This document shows, in pieces, positions 2,300 through 31,322 of a stretch of 32,234 nucleotides of DNA. Under the pieces are notes generated by a model, which was not told the origin of the DNA, made no database searches, and saw nothing but the letters and a program-made list of their open reading frames with translations. Location of the stretch: the NCBI GenBank assembly GCA_003022485.1, contig PXTS01000009.1, positions 1-32,234 on the forward strand. Reading direction: 5' to 3'. The translations under genes and the position numbers were made by a program. Origin of the DNA: Bacteroidetes bacterium QS_8_68_28 (GTDB lineage Bacteria > Bacteroidota > Rhodothermia > Rhodothermales > Salinibacteraceae). How positions within the stretch are numbered: the stretch's first letter is position 1; each line of letters starts with the position of its first letter.

Positions 2300-2626
2300 G
2301 GACCGGGACGTAGGAACGAATTCGACGGAGGCTTCGCAAAGCCAACGCCGCGTCGCTCCCCGCGAGGGCTCTGCGACGATTGCCTGCGGGCATTCAGGCC
2401 ATACCCTGTAAGCTGAACCTCAAATGCAGATTCATGGATTTATATGGTCAGCGCGATAGCCAGCGGCGATCAAGCCGTAAGCCGCCGGCCCGGGCGGTGC
2501 AGCACGCGGGCGTTCGGGACCCGCTCTTGCCTGCTCGTCACGACGGGCGTCTTGACGACCGGGCGGCGGCGGGGCTATCTTTTTGTTTCCCCTGCTTGCG
2601 CCGTTTCGCTTGCCTCCGCCCTCACC

Positions 2627-3328
2627 ATGCCTTTCACCGTTCGGCGCTGCGCGCTGCCGCTTGCCACCGCGCTCGTGCTGCTGGGAAGCGCCGCCTGCGG
2701 GGATGCCGCCGGCACGAACTCGCGCCTCGGCGACACCTCCGTCGACAGCAGCGACACACGCGCGCATCGCGTCGCAGGACTGGTGACGGGCGTCGACACG
2801 CTGTCCACGCTCGCGCGGGCACTTCGCCGGGGCGGGCTACTCCGCGAGCTGCGGCGCGGCGGGCCGTACACGCTCTTTGCCCCCACCGACGACGCCTTTC
2901 GGCGCCACTGGCCCGGCTTCGACAGCCTGCTGGCCCCCGCCGGCACCTCAGGGGTTGCCGGAGGCCTCGCGGGCGCTTCCCCGGGCGGCACGCCTCCCGA
3001 GTTGTCCCCGCGCGACACTCTGCGGACCCTGCTCCGATTCCACCTCGTGCGCGGGCGCTTCGCCGCTCGCTCCCTCACCGACTCGCTGCGCCTGAGCACC
3101 CTCGCCGACAAGTCGCTCATGCTGGAACGCGCCCGCCGCCGTGGCTCGGGGCGGCGCGTGCGCGTGCGCGAAATGCCCCGCCCGGTGCCCGTTCGCCGCA
3201 CGCTGCGGGCACAGAACGGGGTCATCCACGTCCTGCCGCGCCCGTTGCGCATCCCCCCGCCGGACACCAGTGCGGAAGGCGCCCTCGGTGACACGACCGC
3301 CGCCGCGCCCTCCCCGAACGCCAACTGA
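2627..3328 (+). CDS. Fasciclin-domain lipoprotein (copy 1)
   Basis: MPFTVRRCALPLATALVLLGSAACGD lipobox; RRGGPYTLFAPTDDAF and TLLRFHLVRGRF, NGVIHVL fasciclin motifs. Start placed at ATG 2627 inside ORF 2444..3328. Confidence 0.82.
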   Translation: MPFTVRRCALPLATALVLLGSAACGDAAGTNSRLGDTSVDSSDTRAHRVAGLVTGVDTLSTLARALRRGGLLRELRRGGPYTLFAPTDDAFRRHWPGFDSLLAPAGTSGVAGGLAGASPGGTPPELSPRDTLRTLLRFHLVRGRFAARSLTDSLRLSTLADKSLMLERARRRGSGRRVRVREMPRPVPVRRTLRAQNGVIHVLPRPLRIPPPDTSAEGALGDTTAAAPSPNAN

Positions 3329-3381: not shown

Positions 3382-4086
3382 ATGCTTTCCGTTTGCCGTC
3401 TCCGCCGCGCGATGGCTGCGGCAGCGACCGTCCTGCTGCTCTCGGCCTGTGGGGGGGAGCGCCCGGCCCCCGGCGCCTCGGCGCTCGACAGCACATCTCT
3501 GCTCACGCAGGACACGACGCTCGACGCCTCCCTCGCCGAGGTGCTGCGACGCCGCGAGCGCTTTCGCGTCTTCTCGACGATGCTCGACTCCGCGCGGCTG
3601 CTCTCCAGGTTGCAGCGCGGCGGCTCCTACACCGTCTTCGCCCCTACCGATCCCGGCATCCAGAAGTTGCCCGAAGGCGTCGTCGAAGAACTCCTTTTGC
3701 CGGCCAACCGCGAGCGGCTGCGCCAGATCGTCGGCTACCACCTGCACCGGGGGCGGATCGCCCGAGACAGCCTGCCGGGCATGGACTCGATTTCCACGAT
3801 AGCCGGATCGGCCCTTCCCGTCGCCACCGAAGGCGGGCGCGTGCTCGTCGGCAATGAACGGATGGGCGAGTACGTGATCACTACCCGCAACGGGCGCATC
3901 TTTGCCCTCAACGTGCCGGTGATGCCGCCCCCCGACGCGGCGACCCGGACGCTACCCGACGGCGGGACCTACGATACCCTCGGCGCCGACGACGATACGG
4001 GCAACAGCAACGGGAACGGAGATGGCGGAAATGGTGCGGGGAGAGATGACACGGGCGGCAGCGACGGAGGAAACGACGAGGGCTGA
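3382..4086 (+). CDS. Fasciclin-domain lipoprotein (copy 2) with Gly/Asn/Asp-rich tail
   Basis: MLSVCRLRRAMAAAATVLLLSACGGE lipobox; LQRGGSYTVFAPTDPGIQKL, GYHLHRGRI; low-complexity C-terminus. Confidence 0.85.
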   Translation: MLSVCRLRRAMAAAATVLLLSACGGERPAPGASALDSTSLLTQDTTLDASLAEVLRRRERFRVFSTMLDSARLLSRLQRGGSYTVFAPTDPGIQKLPEGVVEELLLPANRERLRQIVGYHLHRGRIARDSLPGMDSISTIAGSALPVATEGGRVLVGNERMGEYVITTRNGRIFALNVPVMPPPDAATRTLPDGGTYDTLGADDDTGNSNGNGDGGNGAGRDDTGGSDGGNDEG

Positions 4087-5725: not shown

Positions 5726-6625
5726 TTATTTGAGAGATTCGTACGTGCTCAGGTGCGCCGCGTCGAGCTGGCTGAGCAGGGCGTAGGCCTCACTCTCCAT
5801 CGGCGACTCTTCGAAAAGCGCCGCCAGCTCCTCGAACTTCACGGCGAAAAACAAGTCGAGGACGTAGCGGCGCGACACGTCCTCATCGACCGTTCGGAGC
5901 GCCTGGAGCACCTCGAGGGCCGACTGCCGGGCCGCTTCCGTCTGGGCGACGAAGCGGTCGAGGCTGCGCAGGTGGTAGCGAAACAGCGCCCGGCGGAACG
6001 GCCGGTACCGCGAGTCCAGCAGCTGGGTGACGAGTGCGACGCGCCCCCGCCCGCCGACGGGCGTCCAGCCGGGAGCGCCGTTGGACTGGGCGAGCTCGGC
6101 AAGGTCGCGGGCCTGCTCGAAGTGCGGCGTGCCCCCGAGCTCGCTGAAGGTGTCGTAATCGTAGCCGAGCATCAGGTAGGCATAGAAGTCCAGCACCGTC
6201 GTGAGGTCGCCGTACTGCTCGACGTTGTGAGCGAGCGGCCGGCCTTCGGTATAGGAAAATTCCCAGTTCTCGTCGCGTAGGCGCGTGACCAGCGTCTGCT
6301 GGGAGGTCCCGTAGATCGGGCGGCGCGTGGCAACGACCAGCTGCGCGCGAAAGTCCGTCAGGCTGACCGCTTCTTGAAAGTAGATCTCAACGTTGCAACT
6401 GATGCGCTCGAAGTCCTGAAAGCGGTCGTCCGTCCACTTCTCGTTGTTGAAGTAGTCCTCGATCTTCCCCTCCAGTTCCTCCAGAAACGAAAACTCCGAT
6501 CCCGAAAGGTTCGAGTAGTCCACCGAGACGCTGCAATTCAATTCCTGTGCGCGCATGGTGGCGGGATGAGCGAACGCGCACGTGAGCAGTCCCGCGAACA
6601 GCGCGGCGAGCAGACGAGGCTTCAT
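5726..6625 (-). CDS. DUF4835 family protein (PorD-like, T9SS-associated family)
   Basis: Signal peptide MKPRLLAALFAGLLTCAFAHPATMRAQ then ELNCSVSVDYSNLSG...FNNEKWTDDRF...ERISCNVEIYFQE, ...LDFYAYLMLGYDYDTFSELGG, typical DUF4835. Confidence 0.85.
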   Translation of the reverse strand: MKPRLLAALFAGLLTCAFAHPATMRAQELNCSVSVDYSNLSGSEFSFLEELEGKIEDYFNNEKWTDDRFQDFERISCNVEIYFQEAVSLTDFRAQLVVATRRPIYGTSQQTLVTRLRDENWEFSYTEGRPLAHNVEQYGDLTTVLDFYAYLMLGYDYDTFSELGGTPHFEQARDLAELAQSNGAPGWTPVGGRGRVALVTQLLDSRYRPFRRALFRYHLRSLDRFVAQTEAARQSALEVLQALRTVDEDVSRRYVLDLFFAVKFEELAALFEESPMESEAYALLSQLDAAHLSTYESLK

Positions 6626-6651
6626 CGGAGCGGGCGCGGCAACGGAAGTGC

Positions 6652-6683
6652 AGTGCAGTACTCCAATAGTGCAGTACTCCAAT
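6652..6683. repeat. 2 x 16-bp perfect tandem repeat in the DUF4835 leader
   Basis: AGTGCAGTACTCCAAT twice, with a further partial AGTGC at 6647. Confidence 0.95.
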
Positions 6684-6832
6684 AGTAAGGAGGACAGGCG
6701 GTTTCACCCCCGGCGCGGAGAACGACTCGGAAGCAAATATTAATTTCAGGTTAACAAACAGGGCGCGGCGTTGCGCATCGGCGCCGGGGCGTGTCTTGGC
6801 CCATCCGTCTCCTCGCCCGTCCCCGCGTCTCC

Positions 6833-7684
6833 ATGCATTCCCGCATTGCCGTCTGGGTGAGCATCGGCCTGGGGTTGGTGCTCGCGGCAAGGCCGGCCTC
6901 CGCGCAACAGGCGCTCTCAATGGAGGGCGGGGCGCGCGTGGCCGCTCTCGCCGGCGCAGGCACGGCGCTCCCTGGTAGCGCCTGGGGATGGGGCAACCCC
7001 GCTGGGCCGGCCACACTCGGCGAGCGGGCGGTGAGCTTCTACGCCACGCAGGGCTTCGGGCTCTCGGAGCTGCGCCTGGGGGCTGCTCGCTACGCCGAGC
7101 CGACGGCCTGGGGCACGTTCGCGGCGGGCGCCCGCACGTTCGGGCACGACGCCTACCGCGAGACGGTCTTTTCGCTCGGATACGCGCGCAGCTTCCAGTT
7201 CGGAACCTCGCGGGGCGCGCAGGCGGGCCTGACGGCGCGCTACTACCGCCTCTCGCTGGGGAGCCGCTCGGACGGCGCCTCCTACGGAAGCGCCGGAGCG
7301 CTGGCGCTCTCGCTGGGGGCGCAGGTGCGGCTGCTTCCACGCCTCACGCTGGGCGCAGCGGCAGCCAACGTCAACGCGGCCCGCTACGCGGACGGGGCTG
7401 AGCTGGCCCAGACGCTCGCGGTGGGTCTGGCCTTCCGCGCCTCCGACCGCCTCCTCGTCCTCGCCGATGCCTTCAAGGACGTCGATCACGCGCTCTCGGG
7501 ACGCGCGGGGCTGGAGTTCGTGCCCGTCGAGGCGCTGGCGGTGCGCCTCGGCGTGGCCGGCGCCCCGGCGCGCGTGACGGCCGGCGTGGGGCTGCGCCTC
7601 AGCGTGCTTCGCGCGCGGTTGGCTTTCGAGCGCCACCGTACGCTCGGCTGGACCCCCGCCGCCGGCCTCGCGGTGCGCTGGTAG
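6833..7684 (+). CDS. PorV/PorQ-like outer-membrane beta-barrel protein
   Basis: Signal peptide ending ASAQQ; SMEGGARVAALAGAGTALPGSAWGWGNPAGPATL is the PorV/PorQ-type N-terminal pattern; Gly/aromatic-rich strands; ends LAVRW. Confidence 0.65.
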   Translation: MHSRIAVWVSIGLGLVLAARPASAQQALSMEGGARVAALAGAGTALPGSAWGWGNPAGPATLGERAVSFYATQGFGLSELRLGAARYAEPTAWGTFAAGARTFGHDAYRETVFSLGYARSFQFGTSRGAQAGLTARYYRLSLGSRSDGASYGSAGALALSLGAQVRLLPRLTLGAAAANVNAARYADGAELAQTLAVGLAFRASDRLLVLADAFKDVDHALSGRAGLEFVPVEALAVRLGVAGAPARVTAGVGLRLSVLRARLAFERHRTLGWTPAAGLAVRW

Positions 7685-7811
7685 CGCGCGCCGCTCGCGG
7701 AGGGCGGACCTGAACGGCGGACCTCTTCCGAGGCCCCCAGGTGGCTCGAGCAGATGCGTTTGCAGTCCGGCATACTCCCAAGCCTCCGCACACGCCTTCC
7801 CCCACGCTCCC

Positions 7812-10013
7812 GTGCACGTTCCACTCCTCATCGGCGTTGCTCTGCTGCTGGCCGTTCCCGCCGCCGCCCAACCGGCGGACACGACCGAGGCGTTCCCCGA
7901 CAGCGCCCGCGTGGCACGCGACGCCGAGGCCGCGCTCGACGACCTGGAGCGCAACGGCTCGGGCGCGGCGCAGCTGGCCGAGCGCCTCGCCACCCTCGTT
8001 GAGCAGCCGCTCGACGTGAACGCTGCCTCCGCCAGCGAACTGGCACAGATTCCGGCCCTTTCCCCATTTGCAGCGCGGAATATCACTCTTCTCCGCCAGC
8101 AACAGGCGTCCTTCGCGTCGCTGGGCGCGCTACGCGCGGCTCAGGGCGTAACCGGCGAGGTCCTCGCGCAGGCACGACCGTACCTGACCGTCGGCCCGGC
8201 GGCCCGTGCAGGACGGCGCTACCCGGCGTCGCCGTCGTTCGGCCAAGTTCTGCGCGGACTCGAGTTCAGCGCGATGCAGCGCGTGACGCGACGGCTCGAC
8301 CTGGGAAAGGGCTACGACCCGGCGGCCGTGCGCCGCGTGACCGCCGAAGGGGACACGATCTTCGCCACCCGCTACCGGGGCGGGCCGGAGCGCATTTACA
8401 CCCGCCTGCGTGCCCGCTACGAGCGCCGCGTGAGCCTCGCCCTGACGCTGGACAAAGATCCCGGCGAGCGCTTCGCCTGGGCGCCGGAGCACCAGTCCTT
8501 CGGCTACGACCACGTGAGCGGGCACGTGGCCCTGCGCGACTTCGGACGTCTCAAGACCGTCGTCGCGGGAGACTTTACCGCCGCCTTCGGCCAGGGACTC
8601 ACCTTCTCGGAAAGCAGCGTCTTTGGGAAAGGGCGCAACGCGGTACGCTCTGTGGCCCAAAGCGGTGGGGGGCTCGACCCCTACGGCTCGGCGGGCGAGA
8701 ACCGCTTCTTTCGCGGCGCAGCAGCCACGGTGCGCCTCACGCCCCGCTTCCGGGCGAGCGCCTTTGCCTCACGCCGCATGCTCGACGCCTCGCTGGTGGA
8801 AGCGGATACGACCTTGCCACGCTCCGGCCCCGACCCGCCCGGCACGGCCCGCGTCACGGCGCTGACGGGAAGCGGCCTTCACCGCACGCTCCGCGAGCTT
8901 TCCAAAAAGGACGCCCTCGGAGAAACACTGGCCGGCGGAGCGCTCCTGTACGACGGGACGGCCTTCCGCGCCGGGGCAACGGGCTACCGCGCCCGCTTCG
9001 ACGAGCCGATCCAGCCGGACACCGCGCGGCTCTTTCGGCGCTTCGACTTCAATGGGCGGCAGGCGACGGCGGCCAGCCTCTTCGGACAGGTTTTTGCGGG
9101 CGACTACCTCTTTTTCGGCGAGGTGGGGCGGGCGCCCGGCGGGGCCGTCGGCGGGATCGGGGGCGTCCAGGCGGAGGTGGGACGCTTCGCAGAGGCGGTG
9201 GTGCTGGCCCGCCACTTCCCACGCGACTTTACCGCGCTGCACGGCTCCGCCTTCGGCGAGCGCAGCGGCCCGCCCCAGAACGAGGCAGGCCTCTACACCG
9301 GCTTGCGCCTGAAGCCCGCGCGGCGCGTCACGGTGAAGGGCTACTTCGACCTGTACCGCTTCCCGTGGGGGCGCTTTGCCGTACCGCGCCCCTCCTCCGG
9401 CTACGACGCGCGCCTTGTCGCCGAGCACCAGCCGCGCGACTGGCTCTCCTACTACGTCCAGCTCCGCACCGAGACGCGCGGGGGCGGGACCGACGTGCTC
9501 GATCCCGCCGGGCGCCCCCTCAACGGGCTGATCGAAGAGACGCGCCAGTCTGCCCGGCTGCACGTGGACTACGAGTTTTCCGACGCGCTGCGGCTGCGCT
9601 CACGCATCGAGGGGGTGCGCTACGTCGAAGACGGGCCGCATTTCGCAAACGAAGATTTCGGCGCGCGGCGCGGTACGGACTACGGCACGCTCCTGTACCA
9701 GGACGTGCGCTGGCGGCCCTTCGAGGGGGTGCGGCTGGACGCGCGGCTGGCGTTTTTCGACACCGACAGCTACGCTGCGCGCGTCTACGCCTACGAAAAC
9801 GACCTGCTTTACGCCTTTAGCGTGCCGGCGCTCTCAGGGCAGGGGCAGCGCTGGTACTTGCTCGCTCGCTGGGCCCCTTCCAAGAACGTCGTGCTGGAGG
9901 CCAAGTACGCGGCCACGCACTTTCGCGGCGTCGAGACCGTCGGCAGCGGGCTGGCGGAGGTCGACGGCCCGCGCCGCCGCGAGATACGTGCACAGGTGCG
10001 GGTCACGTTTTGA
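7812..10013 (+). CDS. Helix-hairpin-helix (ComEA-like) domain protein with large C-terminal beta-barrel
   Basis: GTG start, signal peptide HVPLLIGVALLLAVPAAAQ; LDVNAASASELAQIPALSPFAARNITLLRQQQASFASLGALRAAQGV is a ComEA-type HhH; long barrel-like region ending REIRAQVRVTF with terminal Phe. Confidence 0.82.
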   Translation: MHVPLLIGVALLLAVPAAAQPADTTEAFPDSARVARDAEAALDDLERNGSGAAQLAERLATLVEQPLDVNAASASELAQIPALSPFAARNITLLRQQQASFASLGALRAAQGVTGEVLAQARPYLTVGPAARAGRRYPASPSFGQVLRGLEFSAMQRVTRRLDLGKGYDPAAVRRVTAEGDTIFATRYRGGPERIYTRLRARYERRVSLALTLDKDPGERFAWAPEHQSFGYDHVSGHVALRDFGRLKTVVAGDFTAAFGQGLTFSESSVFGKGRNAVRSVAQSGGGLDPYGSAGENRFFRGAAATVRLTPRFRASAFASRRMLDASLVEADTTLPRSGPDPPGTARVTALTGSGLHRTLRELSKKDALGETLAGGALLYDGTAFRAGATGYRARFDEPIQPDTARLFRRFDFNGRQATAASLFGQVFAGDYLFFGEVGRAPGGAVGGIGGVQAEVGRFAEAVVLARHFPRDFTALHGSAFGERSGPPQNEAGLYTGLRLKPARRVTVKGYFDLYRFPWGRFAVPRPSSGYDARLVAEHQPRDWLSYYVQLRTETRGGGTDVLDPAGRPLNGLIEETRQSARLHVDYEFSDALRLRSRIEGVRYVEDGPHFANEDFGARRGTDYGTLLYQDVRWRPFEGVRLDARLAFFDTDSYAARVYAYENDLLYAFSVPALSGQGQRWYLLARWAPSKNVVLEAKYAATHFRGVETVGSGLAEVDGPRRREIRAQVRVTF

Positions 10014-16773: not shown

Positions 16774-18720
16774 CTATCCCCCCACGACCAGCCCGATGTG
16801 GACACGTCCGCCATCGGGGCCGTCCTCGTCGTTGAGCGCGTAGCCGGCCTTGACGAGGCCGAGCGCCGACTCGAACTGGAGGCCGACGCCGAAGCCGGGA
16901 TGCCAGCCGCTCTGCGGAACGGACGCCCCCGGCAGTGCGGGGCGGCGCGCGTGGCCGACATCCAGGAACGCATAGGCGAAGGAGCGGCGGCCCAGCAGGT
17001 AGCGGTACTCCACCAGCGCCCGCCCCACGACATGCCCGCGAAAGCGGTCTTCATCGTAGCCGCGTAGCGAGCGCGCCCCACCGAGGAAAAACAGGTCGCT
17101 GCGGTCATAGCGGTCCGAGGCCATCAGCAGCGAGGCGTCCGCTCCAAAGGCGAGGACCTGGCGGGGGCGAAGGGCAAGGTAGGCGCGGGCGGTGCACTCG
17201 AAGCGCTGCTGTGTGAGGGTGCGGTCGGTGCGGAGGGTGTCGCTGCCGGAAGCGGGGACACGTCGAGCGCGGCGCGCTTTGCGCCCGAGGGAAACGTCGG
17301 CGTCGAGGCGGAGGCCCCCACGCGGGCTGGCCGTCGGGCCGCGCAGGCGGCGCAGGCGCACCCCCGCTCCGCCGAACCATGACGACGCCCACGCGACCCT
17401 CTGGCGACGCCCGCCGCCGGCACTGCCACCACCGGCGCTGCCACCACCGGCTGGGGCGGCCAGTCGGCGACCGGCGATGCCGGGGCGGGTGACCTCGCGG
17501 CTCACCTCCGCCCGCACGCGCAGGCCTCGCCCCACACGGTAGCCCGCGCCGAGGCGGTAGCGCTGGCGCCCGTAGGTGGAGTCTTCCTGGAGCCCTTCGA
17601 AGGCCAGCGCCAGCCGCAGCGGGGTGCCCCCCACGAACGGATTGGTGGCCTCGACCTCAAAGCGGCTCAGCGCGCCGGGGCGCCGGTCCAGGCGGAGCGC
17701 GGCGGTGCGTCCCGCGCCGAACGGGCTGCGCAGCGCCAGCGACCCGCTCCCCACGAGGCGCCCGCCCCGATCGCCAGAGGGCGGCAGGTACCCGAGCGCG
17801 AGATCGAACGTGGCGGGCGATTTCTCTTCCACCGGCACGCGCACGACGGCCCCGGTGCCCGCACTGTCGGCGCTTTCGGGCGCGAGGAGCAGCTCCGGCT
17901 CGCCGACGCGCTCGAACAGGTTCGTCTTGCGCAGGCGCTCGCGCACGGCGGCAGGGTCGTAGCCCGCCAGCGGGGTGCCCGTTTCCAGCCCGGCCGTGCG
18001 CGCCACGAAGGCCGGACGCGTGCGTCCCTCGCTTTCGACGGTCACGCGCGAGAGACGCGGCGCGGCTCCTTCGTCGATGGTGATGGTGAGCGCGAGCCGG
18101 GGCGGTGCGCTTCCGGTGAGGCGGACGGAATCCAGGCGCGCCCGGGCGAGCGGGAAGCCTTCGTCCTCGTAGCGGCGCAGGAGGGCGCGCAGGTCCGCCT
18201 TCAGCACGTCTTGGCGAAGCGGGCGCCCGGGGCGCGTCTCCATTAGCGCGCGGAGGGCTTTTCCCGAAAAGGTGCGGTTGCCGGCGAAGCGGATGCGCCC
18301 GACCTCCACGAGCGGCCCGGCGTGCACGTGGAGCCGCGCCTGCGGCGGGCCGGCGGCGCCCGAGTCGATGACGGCCGAGTCAAGGCGAGCGCGGTAGTGG
18401 CCCTGCGCCTGGACGTGGCGCACGGCGGCGCGGGCAGCGGCGCGCAAGCTGTCGAGCGGAAGGGCCGGAACCGAGCGCCAGGCCCGGCGCTCCCCGTCCA
18501 CCACCAGGCGCCACCGCGCACGTCCGTCGCGGGTCCCCCGGGCCTGCGTCGTGTCGGGCGGGGGGGCGGCCAGCGAGGCGGTCTCGTTCGGGGAGCCGTT
18601 CTCTTGGGCATGCGCCGTCGGGAGCGCCAGCAGCAGGGCCAGCAGCAGCGCGGCCCCTCCCGCGCGGCACTCCCGCCGGGGACGAGCGTTGGCAATGAGC
18701 CCGTTTGCCATGCCGACCAT
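16774..18720 (-). CDS. BamA/TamA family outer-membrane protein with POTRA-like repeats
   Basis: Signal peptide ALLLALLLALPTAHAQ; VEVGRIRFAGNRTFSGKALRALMETRPGRPL POTRA; barrel with DLFFLGGARSLRGYDEDRFRG (the conserved RGF/RGY region of Omp85). Confidence 0.88.
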   Translation of the reverse strand: MVGMANGLIANARPRRECRAGGAALLLALLLALPTAHAQENGSPNETASLAAPPPDTTQARGTRDGRARWRLVVDGERRAWRSVPALPLDSLRAAARAAVRHVQAQGHYRARLDSAVIDSGAAGPPQARLHVHAGPLVEVGRIRFAGNRTFSGKALRALMETRPGRPLRQDVLKADLRALLRRYEDEGFPLARARLDSVRLTGSAPPRLALTITIDEGAAPRLSRVTVESEGRTRPAFVARTAGLETGTPLAGYDPAAVRERLRKTNLFERVGEPELLLAPESADSAGTGAVVRVPVEEKSPATFDLALGYLPPSGDRGGRLVGSGSLALRSPFGAGRTAALRLDRRPGALSRFEVEATNPFVGGTPLRLALAFEGLQEDSTYGRQRYRLGAGYRVGRGLRVRAEVSREVTRPGIAGRRLAAPAGGGSAGGGSAGGGRRQRVAWASSWFGGAGVRLRRLRGPTASPRGGLRLDADVSLGRKARRARRVPASGSDTLRTDRTLTQQRFECTARAYLALRPRQVLAFGADASLLMASDRYDRSDLFFLGGARSLRGYDEDRFRGHVVGRALVEYRYLLGRRSFAYAFLDVGHARRPALPGASVPQSGWHPGFGVGLQFESALGLVKAGYALNDEDGPDGGRVHIGLVVGG

Positions 18721-18754
18721 CACCGCAGGCGCTCACCAAATCCGAAGAAGAGCA

Positions 18755-30203: not shown

Positions 30204-30256
30204 CCCTTCACGGCGTGTCCCCCTTCACGGCGTGCGCTGGTCACGGCGTGCGCTGG
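30204..30256. repeat. Tandem repeats spanning the SCO gene stop codon
   Basis: TCACGGCGTGCGCTGG at 30225-30240 and 30241-30256 (perfect); a further CCCTTCACGGCGTG at 30204. Confidence 0.95.
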
Positions 30257-31194
30257 GAAGCAGTCGGCGCTGCCCGGGCGCTCGCGGGGCCGGCCACGCG
30301 CTTGATGTCTGCCACCACGTCGGCGGGTTGCCAGTCGTTGCCGCGCCAGACTTCACGTAGCGTTCCCTCCGGCCCGATCAGCGCGGTGGTGAGGTTGTGG
30401 GTAATCTGCCCGCCTTCCTGCTCGGTAAAGACGCCGAAAAGCCCCGTCACGCGCTCGATTTGCTCTTTCGTACCCGTGGCGAAGGTCCAGTTCGAGAGGT
30501 CGCCCGTGTAGCGCGCGGCGTAGTCGGTGAGCACCGAGGGCGTGTCGTACTCGGGGTCGAAACTGATGGAGAGCAGCTCGACCTGCTCCTTTAGCTTTGG
30601 CGGGATCTGCTCCTGGAGGGTGGCAAAACGCTTCGACATCAGCGGGCAGTAGTCCGGCAGTGGACAGCGCGTGTAGATGAACGTGAGCACGAGGACGTCG
30701 CCCCGGTAGTCGGCGAGCCGGACGGGCTTGCCGTTCTGGTTTTGCGAAAGGGTGAAGCCGGGGACCTCGACGCCCACGCGGACCGGCTGGGGCGCGCCGG
30801 TCTGTGGGCCGTTCGCGGCGCCCGCCCGAACCGGGCCGGCCGGATGCCGCGCGACGGCGGTGTCGGGCAGGCGCTCGACGCCGGTGATCCACGAACTGTC
30901 CGCCTCCGTGTGAAGCCGAAAGCCAATGGCGTCGCCCACCGCCAGTCCGTCCAGCGCGGTGGAGTCCTTCGCCACGAGCGGCATCGTCATGGCGGGCATG
31001 TAGCCTTCGATGGCCTCGTGCTCGACGATCAGGCGGCGCGGGTCGTCGCTGAAGCCGACCACGCGGCCTTTTACGTCGTAGCCGCCCGCGCCGCGCTGGC
31101 GAAGCATCAGCAGAGCCCCGGCGGCGATGACGAGCAAGGCCAGCGCCAGCCCCGCGCCGATCAGGTAGATTCTTTTTGAAAGGCGATTGCTCAA
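30241..31194 (-). CDS. SCO1/SenC family protein fused to an N-terminal CusF-like copper-binding domain
   Basis: TM anchor RIYLIGAGLALALLVIAAGALL; IVEHEAIEGYMPAMTMPLVAKDST CusF-like; LVLTFIYTRCPLPDYCPLMSKRF, GGQITHNLTTALIGPEG SCO-like. Start likely TTG at 31194; the upstream ATG (31299) reads through intergenic repeat. Confidence 0.88.
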   Translation of the reverse strand: MSNRLSKRIYLIGAGLALALLVIAAGALLMLRQRGAGGYDVKGRVVGFSDDPRRLIVEHEAIEGYMPAMTMPLVAKDSTALDGLAVGDAIGFRLHTEADSSWITGVERLPDTAVARHPAGPVRAGAANGPQTGAPQPVRVGVEVPGFTLSQNQNGKPVRLADYRGDVLVLTFIYTRCPLPDYCPLMSKRFATLQEQIPPKLKEQVELLSISFDPEYDTPSVLTDYAARYTGDLSNWTFATGTKEQIERVTGLFGVFTEQEGGQITHNLTTALIGPEGTLREVWRGNDWQPADVVADIKRVAGPASARAAPTASQRTP

Positions 31195-31322
31195 GCGAGC
31201 GAGTGCTTCGGTTGGGCAGGGAAGTGCTCGTTCGTGAATTGTGGATGGGAGATGGTTCTTCATCGGCAAGCGCGTTGCCGGATGAAAACCCTCCACCATC
31301 TACTATCGAGCGAGCGGACGAA

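Follow-up and report, generated by a model that had tools for sequence, protein, structure and literature searches.

A helix-hairpin-helix outer-membrane barrel as a candidate component of DNA uptake in Bacteroidota

Introduction

In DNA uptake by the type IV pilus, the outer membrane is crossed at the PilQ secretin. For Bacteroidota and green sulfur bacteria, no mechanism for this step is given in the literature searched. The one genetic screen found in that literature, in Riemerella anatipestifer, showed transformation to depend on ComEC, DprA, RecA, and ComF and on four further proteins that have no known homologue in competence (PMC8459023). Among these four are a DUF5689 protein (RA0C_RS04920), whose gene shares an operon with that of a CarboxypepD_reg barrel (RA0C_RS04915), and a helix-hairpin-helix (HhH) protein (RA0C_RS02645); as for the protein described here, the outer-membrane step of this pathway is proposed to use a barrel, with no known secretin (PMC8459023). 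Most of the phylum lacks DUF5689, the marker domain of this system. Here we describe a gene from a 32,234-nucleotide stretch of DNA (the window; contig PXTS01000009.1 of Bacteroidetes bacterium QS_8_68_28) that encodes an HhH module followed by a large outer-membrane barrel. This HhH-barrel protein probably serves DNA uptake at the outer membrane, as either a receptor or a channel, in Bacteroidota, taken here in a wide sense that includes the green sulfur bacteria and the Rhodothermia-like lineage of the window.

The gene lies beside two others that resemble parts of the type IX secretion system (T9SS). PorD is a known part of the extended T9SS translocon and binds SprE/PorW (PMC10994853, PMC8754138). 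PorV holds T9SS substrates (PMC10994853), and PorP-like barrels have the same role (PMC9143113). An original prediction, made from the letters of the window, had proposed DNA capture or uptake by the HhH-barrel protein, or an HhH module repurposed for protein contacts, with a possible link to T9SS through the PorV-like partner.

Results and Discussion

Synteny and joint loss with ComEC

Named genomes were scanned with a narrow alignment led by the Flavihumibacter soli protein; this gave 80 loci, which lean to Sphingobacteriales and relatives. In 35 of the 78 assessable loci, comEC starts no more than 150 nt from the end of the barrel gene, mostly at -12 to +7 nt relative to its stop codon, with the adjacency occurring in Pedobacter, Arcticibacter, Sphingobacterium, Daejeonella, and other genera. 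The downstream gene was identified as ComEC by Pfam (L056 6908-9010, PF03772, E 3.6e-60), and the barrel and comEC genes overlap in a further genome (G002, locus L189). Upstream of the barrel gene, a PorV-like gene is present in 61 of 76 assessable loci. In Sphingobacteriaceae, the genes for the PorV-like protein, the HhH-barrel, and ComEC make up a single operon.

The distribution of the barrel was examined in 297 genomes of the phylum, with presence defined as a profile match of E below 1e-25. ComEC is present in 288 of these. It was dropped as a simple phylum-wide correlate of the barrel, and being almost universal, it is informative only where lost. Nine genomes are without a ComEC match: all seven of one family in the window's own order (f7), the window genome, of which 62% is covered, and one genome that is fragmented. 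The barrel is likewise missing from all seven f7 genomes, and four of the seven have no ComEA-type HhH match to the barrel-family profile, while SprA and PorD are intact; the PorV-like/barrel pair is gone from both f7 porD loci inspected (L186 and L187). A second family, f5, retains a strongly diverged syntenic barrel, and its ComEC is diverged as well, with E values of 1e-31 to 1e-48 where 1e-50 to 1e-69 is typical. Within the window's order, ComEC is missing from 7 of 13 barrel-negative and from none of 17 complete barrel-positive genomes, counts that reflect few independent events. In this order, the barrel follows ComEC and not T9SS.

Strongly diverged syntenic copies of the PorV-like/HhH-barrel pair, missed by ordinary searches, stand beside porD in families f5, f12, and f19 (L182, L184, L190, and L218). 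Families f5 and f12 and one f19 genome (G240), which the profile threshold placed among the barrel-negative genomes, thus retain a copy, and the barrel-negative class mixes loss and divergence.

DUF5689 as a possible replacement

A strong match to DUF5689 (E below 1e-20) occurs in 46 genomes, comprising 40 of 70 barrel-negative but only 6 of 227 barrel-positive genomes (Fisher p about 4e-24, uncorrected for phylogeny). The same tendency is seen within a family of mixed barrel content (f21), where DUF5689 is found in five of five barrel-negative and one of five barrel-positive genomes (p about 0.05). Four DUF5689 loci were inspected. In three of them, the preceding gene has a match to the CarboxypepD_reg or TonB-receptor families, which is also the arrangement in Riemerella; in the fourth, this position is taken by a long gene with no Pfam match. 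On the simplest reading, the barrel and the DUF5689 system are two alternative outer-membrane solutions to one task. The two solutions differ in kind, as RS04915 is TonB-receptor-like, unlike the HhH-barrel, and DUF5689 is distributed in a manner nearly complementary to the barrel. The Riemerella pathway likewise includes an HhH protein, RA0C_RS02645, but this was rejected as the counterpart of the HhH-barrel: in that protein, which is predicted to be periplasmic, the HhH lies at residues 236-301 (PMC8459023), and a separate ComEA-like protein occurs here.

Relationship to the type IX secretion system

The three open reading frames (ORFs) of the window locus were found where the original prediction had placed them, with a DUF4835 gene divergent from the PorV-like/HhH-barrel pair. 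The DUF4835 product matches Pfam PF16119 (E 1.2e-75) and exceeds the curated cut-off of NCBIfam NF052317, "T9SS PorD" (265.7 bits, cut-off 170). Its ORF spans 5726-6682 on the minus strand from a TTG at 6682, with the likely start being an ATG 19 codons in, at 6625, which precedes a signal peptide. A perfect 16-bp tandem repeat, AGTGCAGTACTCCAAT, in 2.2 copies (window 6652-6686), lies just upstream of this likely start and within the TTG-started extension. The genome also encodes the T9SS translocon protein SprA (G000 C24:19384-26748, 1650 bits). In 41 loci, consisting of the window and 40 fetched from other genomes across the phylum, the PorV-like gene is directly upstream of the barrel gene in 35 and porD is divergent from the pair in 26. 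The three-gene arrangement is far beyond chance, and the PorV-like/barrel pair is old and phylum-wide.

The partner's ORF opens at a GTG at 6791, and an ATG at 6833 yields the protein listed in Table 1. AlphaFold predicts a 14-strand FadL-type barrel (pLDDT 92) whose best match in the PDB by Foldseek is PorV of the T9SS translocon (8gl6_F, TM 0.75). Among the PorV/PorQ family profiles used (NF033709/10/11), PorV_fam matches 27 of 33 relatives of the partner (best E 6.7e-23), while the window protein itself scores 31.5 bits, under the cut-off of 90. The partner thus resembles PorV, PorQ, and PorP-like barrels in its fold, and differs from them in being shorter (~280 amino acids), in scoring under this cut-off, and in being paired with an HhH-barrel.

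These features raise the alternative that the pair is a T9SS accessory, in which the PorV-like protein carries substrates, the HhH-barrel provides a second assembly or anchoring platform, and porD is a functional link. The frequency of divergent porD and the partner's fold favor this, as does the partner's distribution. Of 80 genomes examined, 41 of the 51 with the barrel and 1 of the 29 others have a match to the PorV-like subfamily (E below 1e-25), the 29 including diverged barrel copies. When the barrel genomes are divided by T9SS, the subfamily is found in 40 of the 42 that have this system and in 1 of the 9 that lack it (p about 6e-7). Genomes in which the two genes lie apart can also have both (e.g., G272, G005, and G125).

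The distribution of the barrel itself argues otherwise. The barrel is found in 227 and SprA in 229 of the 297 genomes; 161 have both, 66 the barrel only, 68 SprA without a recognizable barrel, and 2 neither. The barrel-only genomes are those of the green sulfur family, whose identity is indicated by CsmA in six of six tested, plus three others. Green sulfur bacteria, which include naturally transformable members (PMC3613366), thus have the barrel in the absence of T9SS. Family f7 shows the reverse, having lost the pair while retaining SprA and PorD, and the pair occurs elsewhere without an adjacent porD, including before comEC. A role for the barrel as a T9SS core component was rejected on the 66 and 68 discordant genomes and on the distribution of PorD, and we regard the accessory role as unlikely. 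The T9SS link that had been suggested is not supported for the barrel and holds in a weaker form for the partner, which seems to be kept where barrel and T9SS both exist. Because the PorV-like protein is retained almost only with T9SS, and because PorV, PorQ, and PorP-like barrels hold substrates, its probable role, by analogy with these proteins, is to connect the barrel with a surface component that T9SS exports.

Two further observations concern the partner. A green sulfur genome without SprA or PorD (G063) has a PorV-like gene away from the barrel (L191 5253-6074; C1:448755-449570). In genome G001, one ORF (L217 5197-6348) matches both the PorV-like and HhH-barrel profiles and is followed by no full barrel ORF; it is possibly a fusion, a broken gene, or a sequence error.

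Predicted structure of the HhH-barrel protein

The HhH-barrel protein starts at a GTG codon and ends in RVTF. An AlphaFold model, based on a 39-sequence alignment (the alignments used for the models being shallow), has helices to about residue 149 and then ~24 long strands extending to the C-terminus. An HhH module followed by a barrel with a C-terminal Phe, as had been predicted from the sequence, is therefore borne out by the model. The barrel region of the window protein is covered by no Pfam or NCBIfam family, and no secretin family is among the Pfam matches of 39 barrel-family members. No HhH-barrel competence protein was found described in the literature searched, nor was a mutant of the gene. 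Positions that face the barrel lumen carry a net positive charge (29 K+R versus 19 D+E per protein), and the HhH and N-terminal region is net negative, a pattern that is compatible with a gate or docking arrangement in the model, although unspecific.

An alternative is an outer-membrane importer of another substrate, such as a polymer or nutrient nucleic-acid fragments, with the comEC neighbourhood being incidental or reflecting nutritional use of DNA. Foldseek matches are to generic barrels only (MtrB, AlgE, and BtuB; all TM <=0.37 to query, with MtrB best at 0.36), and the lumen is lined with conserved residues of positive as well as negative charge, both of which observations would suit such an importer. 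Yet comEC overlaps or abuts the barrel gene across many genera, the barrel is lost jointly with ComEC, no transport or metabolism genes are conserved near it in the 41 loci, and it is found in photosynthetic and heterotrophic lineages alike. We consider import of another substrate improbable.

Degenerate DNA-contact hairpins of the HhH module

The HhH module consists of one HHH_3 match, and the barrel-family HhH profile matches ComEA (8dss) with E 2.8e-15. This similarity would favor a module that binds DNA in the periplasm and draws it inward in the manner of ComEA. Such a role is very improbable and was rejected: a Gly-X-Gly motif is present at hairpin 1 in 0 of 119 barrel-family members with the hairpin aligned (versus 11 of 21 ComEA-like units, from the same phylum plus two PDB sequences) and at hairpin 2 in 9 of 117 (versus 12 of 21), the mean net charge of the module is -1.6 (versus +2.9), and the window genome encodes a separate membrane-anchored ComEA with intact GVG and GIG hairpins (L002 1324-1845). 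The protein does not reach the comEA cut-off of NCBIfam (25.5 bits versus 152).

The module has its own conserved residues, with P66, N70, L77, and R95 being nearly or fully invariant. Since the fold has been kept along with these residues while the Gly-X-Gly hairpins have been lost, a role in protein contacts is probable. The module most likely docks a partner rather than DNA, judging from its sequence, with the partner being, for instance, ComEA or the protein itself as a gate. The barrel-family profile also matches PsbU and GspK (T2SSK), which are different proteins in different locations. Their HhH-type domains are protein-contact modules. The HhH module resembles ComEA in belonging to the same HHH_3 family and in its genome context of competence genes, and differs in its degenerate hairpins, acidic character, and fusion to a large outer-membrane barrel. 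Of the two roles originally predicted for the module, protein contact is the better fit and DNA binding is contradicted.

A ComEA-like protein of 308 amino acids in another genome (L180, G122) has three HhH units, the third of which lacks Gly-X-Gly and is matched by the barrel HhH profile at 63.7 bits. This unit and the HhH module of the barrel are a possible docking pair.

Assessment of DNA uptake and proposed mechanism

DNA uptake is the best reading of the HhH-barrel because of the synteny with comEC, the joint loss with ComEC, the occurrence in transformable green sulfur bacteria, and the near-exclusivity with DUF5689; the net positive lumen also speaks for it. Several points weigh against it. 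The lost hairpins and acidic charge mean that DNA binding cannot be claimed for the HhH module. One event in a single family, Sphingobacteriaceae, probably accounts for the comEC adjacency, which has persisted there. ComEC was not matched in the genome of the window, an absence that is uninformative at 62% completeness. Both barrel and DUF5689 are absent from a ComEC-bearing genus of Sphingobacteriaceae (g76) and from some further lineages with ComEC, whereas the two occur together in six genomes. The co-occurrence counts treat genomes as independent of phylogeny. The predicted DNA capture or uptake stands on the genomic evidence, whereas the argument from a DNA-binding HhH does not. With these points weighed, DNA remains the likelier substrate from context, and the direction of transport is one that we infer.

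In the mechanism we propose, DNA would first be captured at the cell surface; in bacteria with T9SS, the PorV-like barrel may hold an exported protein that does this. The DNA would then cross the outer membrane through the wide, ~24-strand HhH-barrel, with the HhH module gating the channel or recruiting ComEA, after which ComEA and ComEC would complete uptake. The barrel would fill the same step as PilQ, from which it differs in being predicted to be single-chain, with ~24 strands and no secretin domain by Pfam. More tentatively, such a barrel with a ComEA-derived, non-DNA-binding HhH gate may constitute a new class of outer-membrane DNA channel that replaces the pilus secretin, to which, in T9SS bacteria, a PorV-type barrel would present a T9SS-exported DNA-capturing protein.

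The HhH-barrel offers a conserved candidate for the outer-membrane step in about three quarters of the sampled genomes, including those of transformable green sulfur bacteria. It also raises a possible link between T9SS protein secretion and DNA uptake, and is a clear case of a DNA-binding fold without its DNA contacts.

Features of the locus and other genes in the window

Table 1. Coordinates of features at the HhH-barrel locus, in window positions.
Feature	Position	Strand	Basis
porD (DUF4835), T9SS extended-translocon protein	5726..6625	-	PF16119 and NF052317 profile matches
PorV-like 14-strand outer-membrane barrel, 283 amino acids	6833..7684	+	AlphaFold pLDDT 92; Foldseek; conserved adjacency
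HhH outer-membrane barrel, 733 amino acids, C-terminal Phe	7812..10013	+	ORF; AlphaFold pLDDT 87.3, pTM 0.86
Putative signal peptide MHVPLLIGVALLLAVPAAA, GTG start	7812..7868	+	From sequence by eye
ComEA-type HhH module, residues 66-126, probably periplasmic	8007..8189	+	HHH_3 E 8.1e-10; profile comparison with ComEA 8dss
Hairpin 1, Ala-Leu-Ser (Gly-Ile-Gly in DNA-binding ComEA)	8055..8063	+	
Hairpin 2, Gly-Val-Thr (Gly-Ile-Gly in ComEA)	8145..8153	+	
Barrel domain, residues 151-732, ~24 long beta-strands	8262..10010	+	DSSP of model; charge count on alignment

A scan of the window against Rfam gave no match. Elsewhere in the window, two adjacent genes on the same strand encode fasciclin-domain proteins with N-termini resembling export signals (2444-3328 and 3382-4086). 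The minus strand at 16774-18723 encodes a barrel of the Omp85 superfamily, in which one POTRA domain was detected and which may be TamA/TamL-like. Also on the minus strand, the protein encoded at 30241-31299 combines a CusF copper-binding domain with a SCO1/SenC domain in a fusion.

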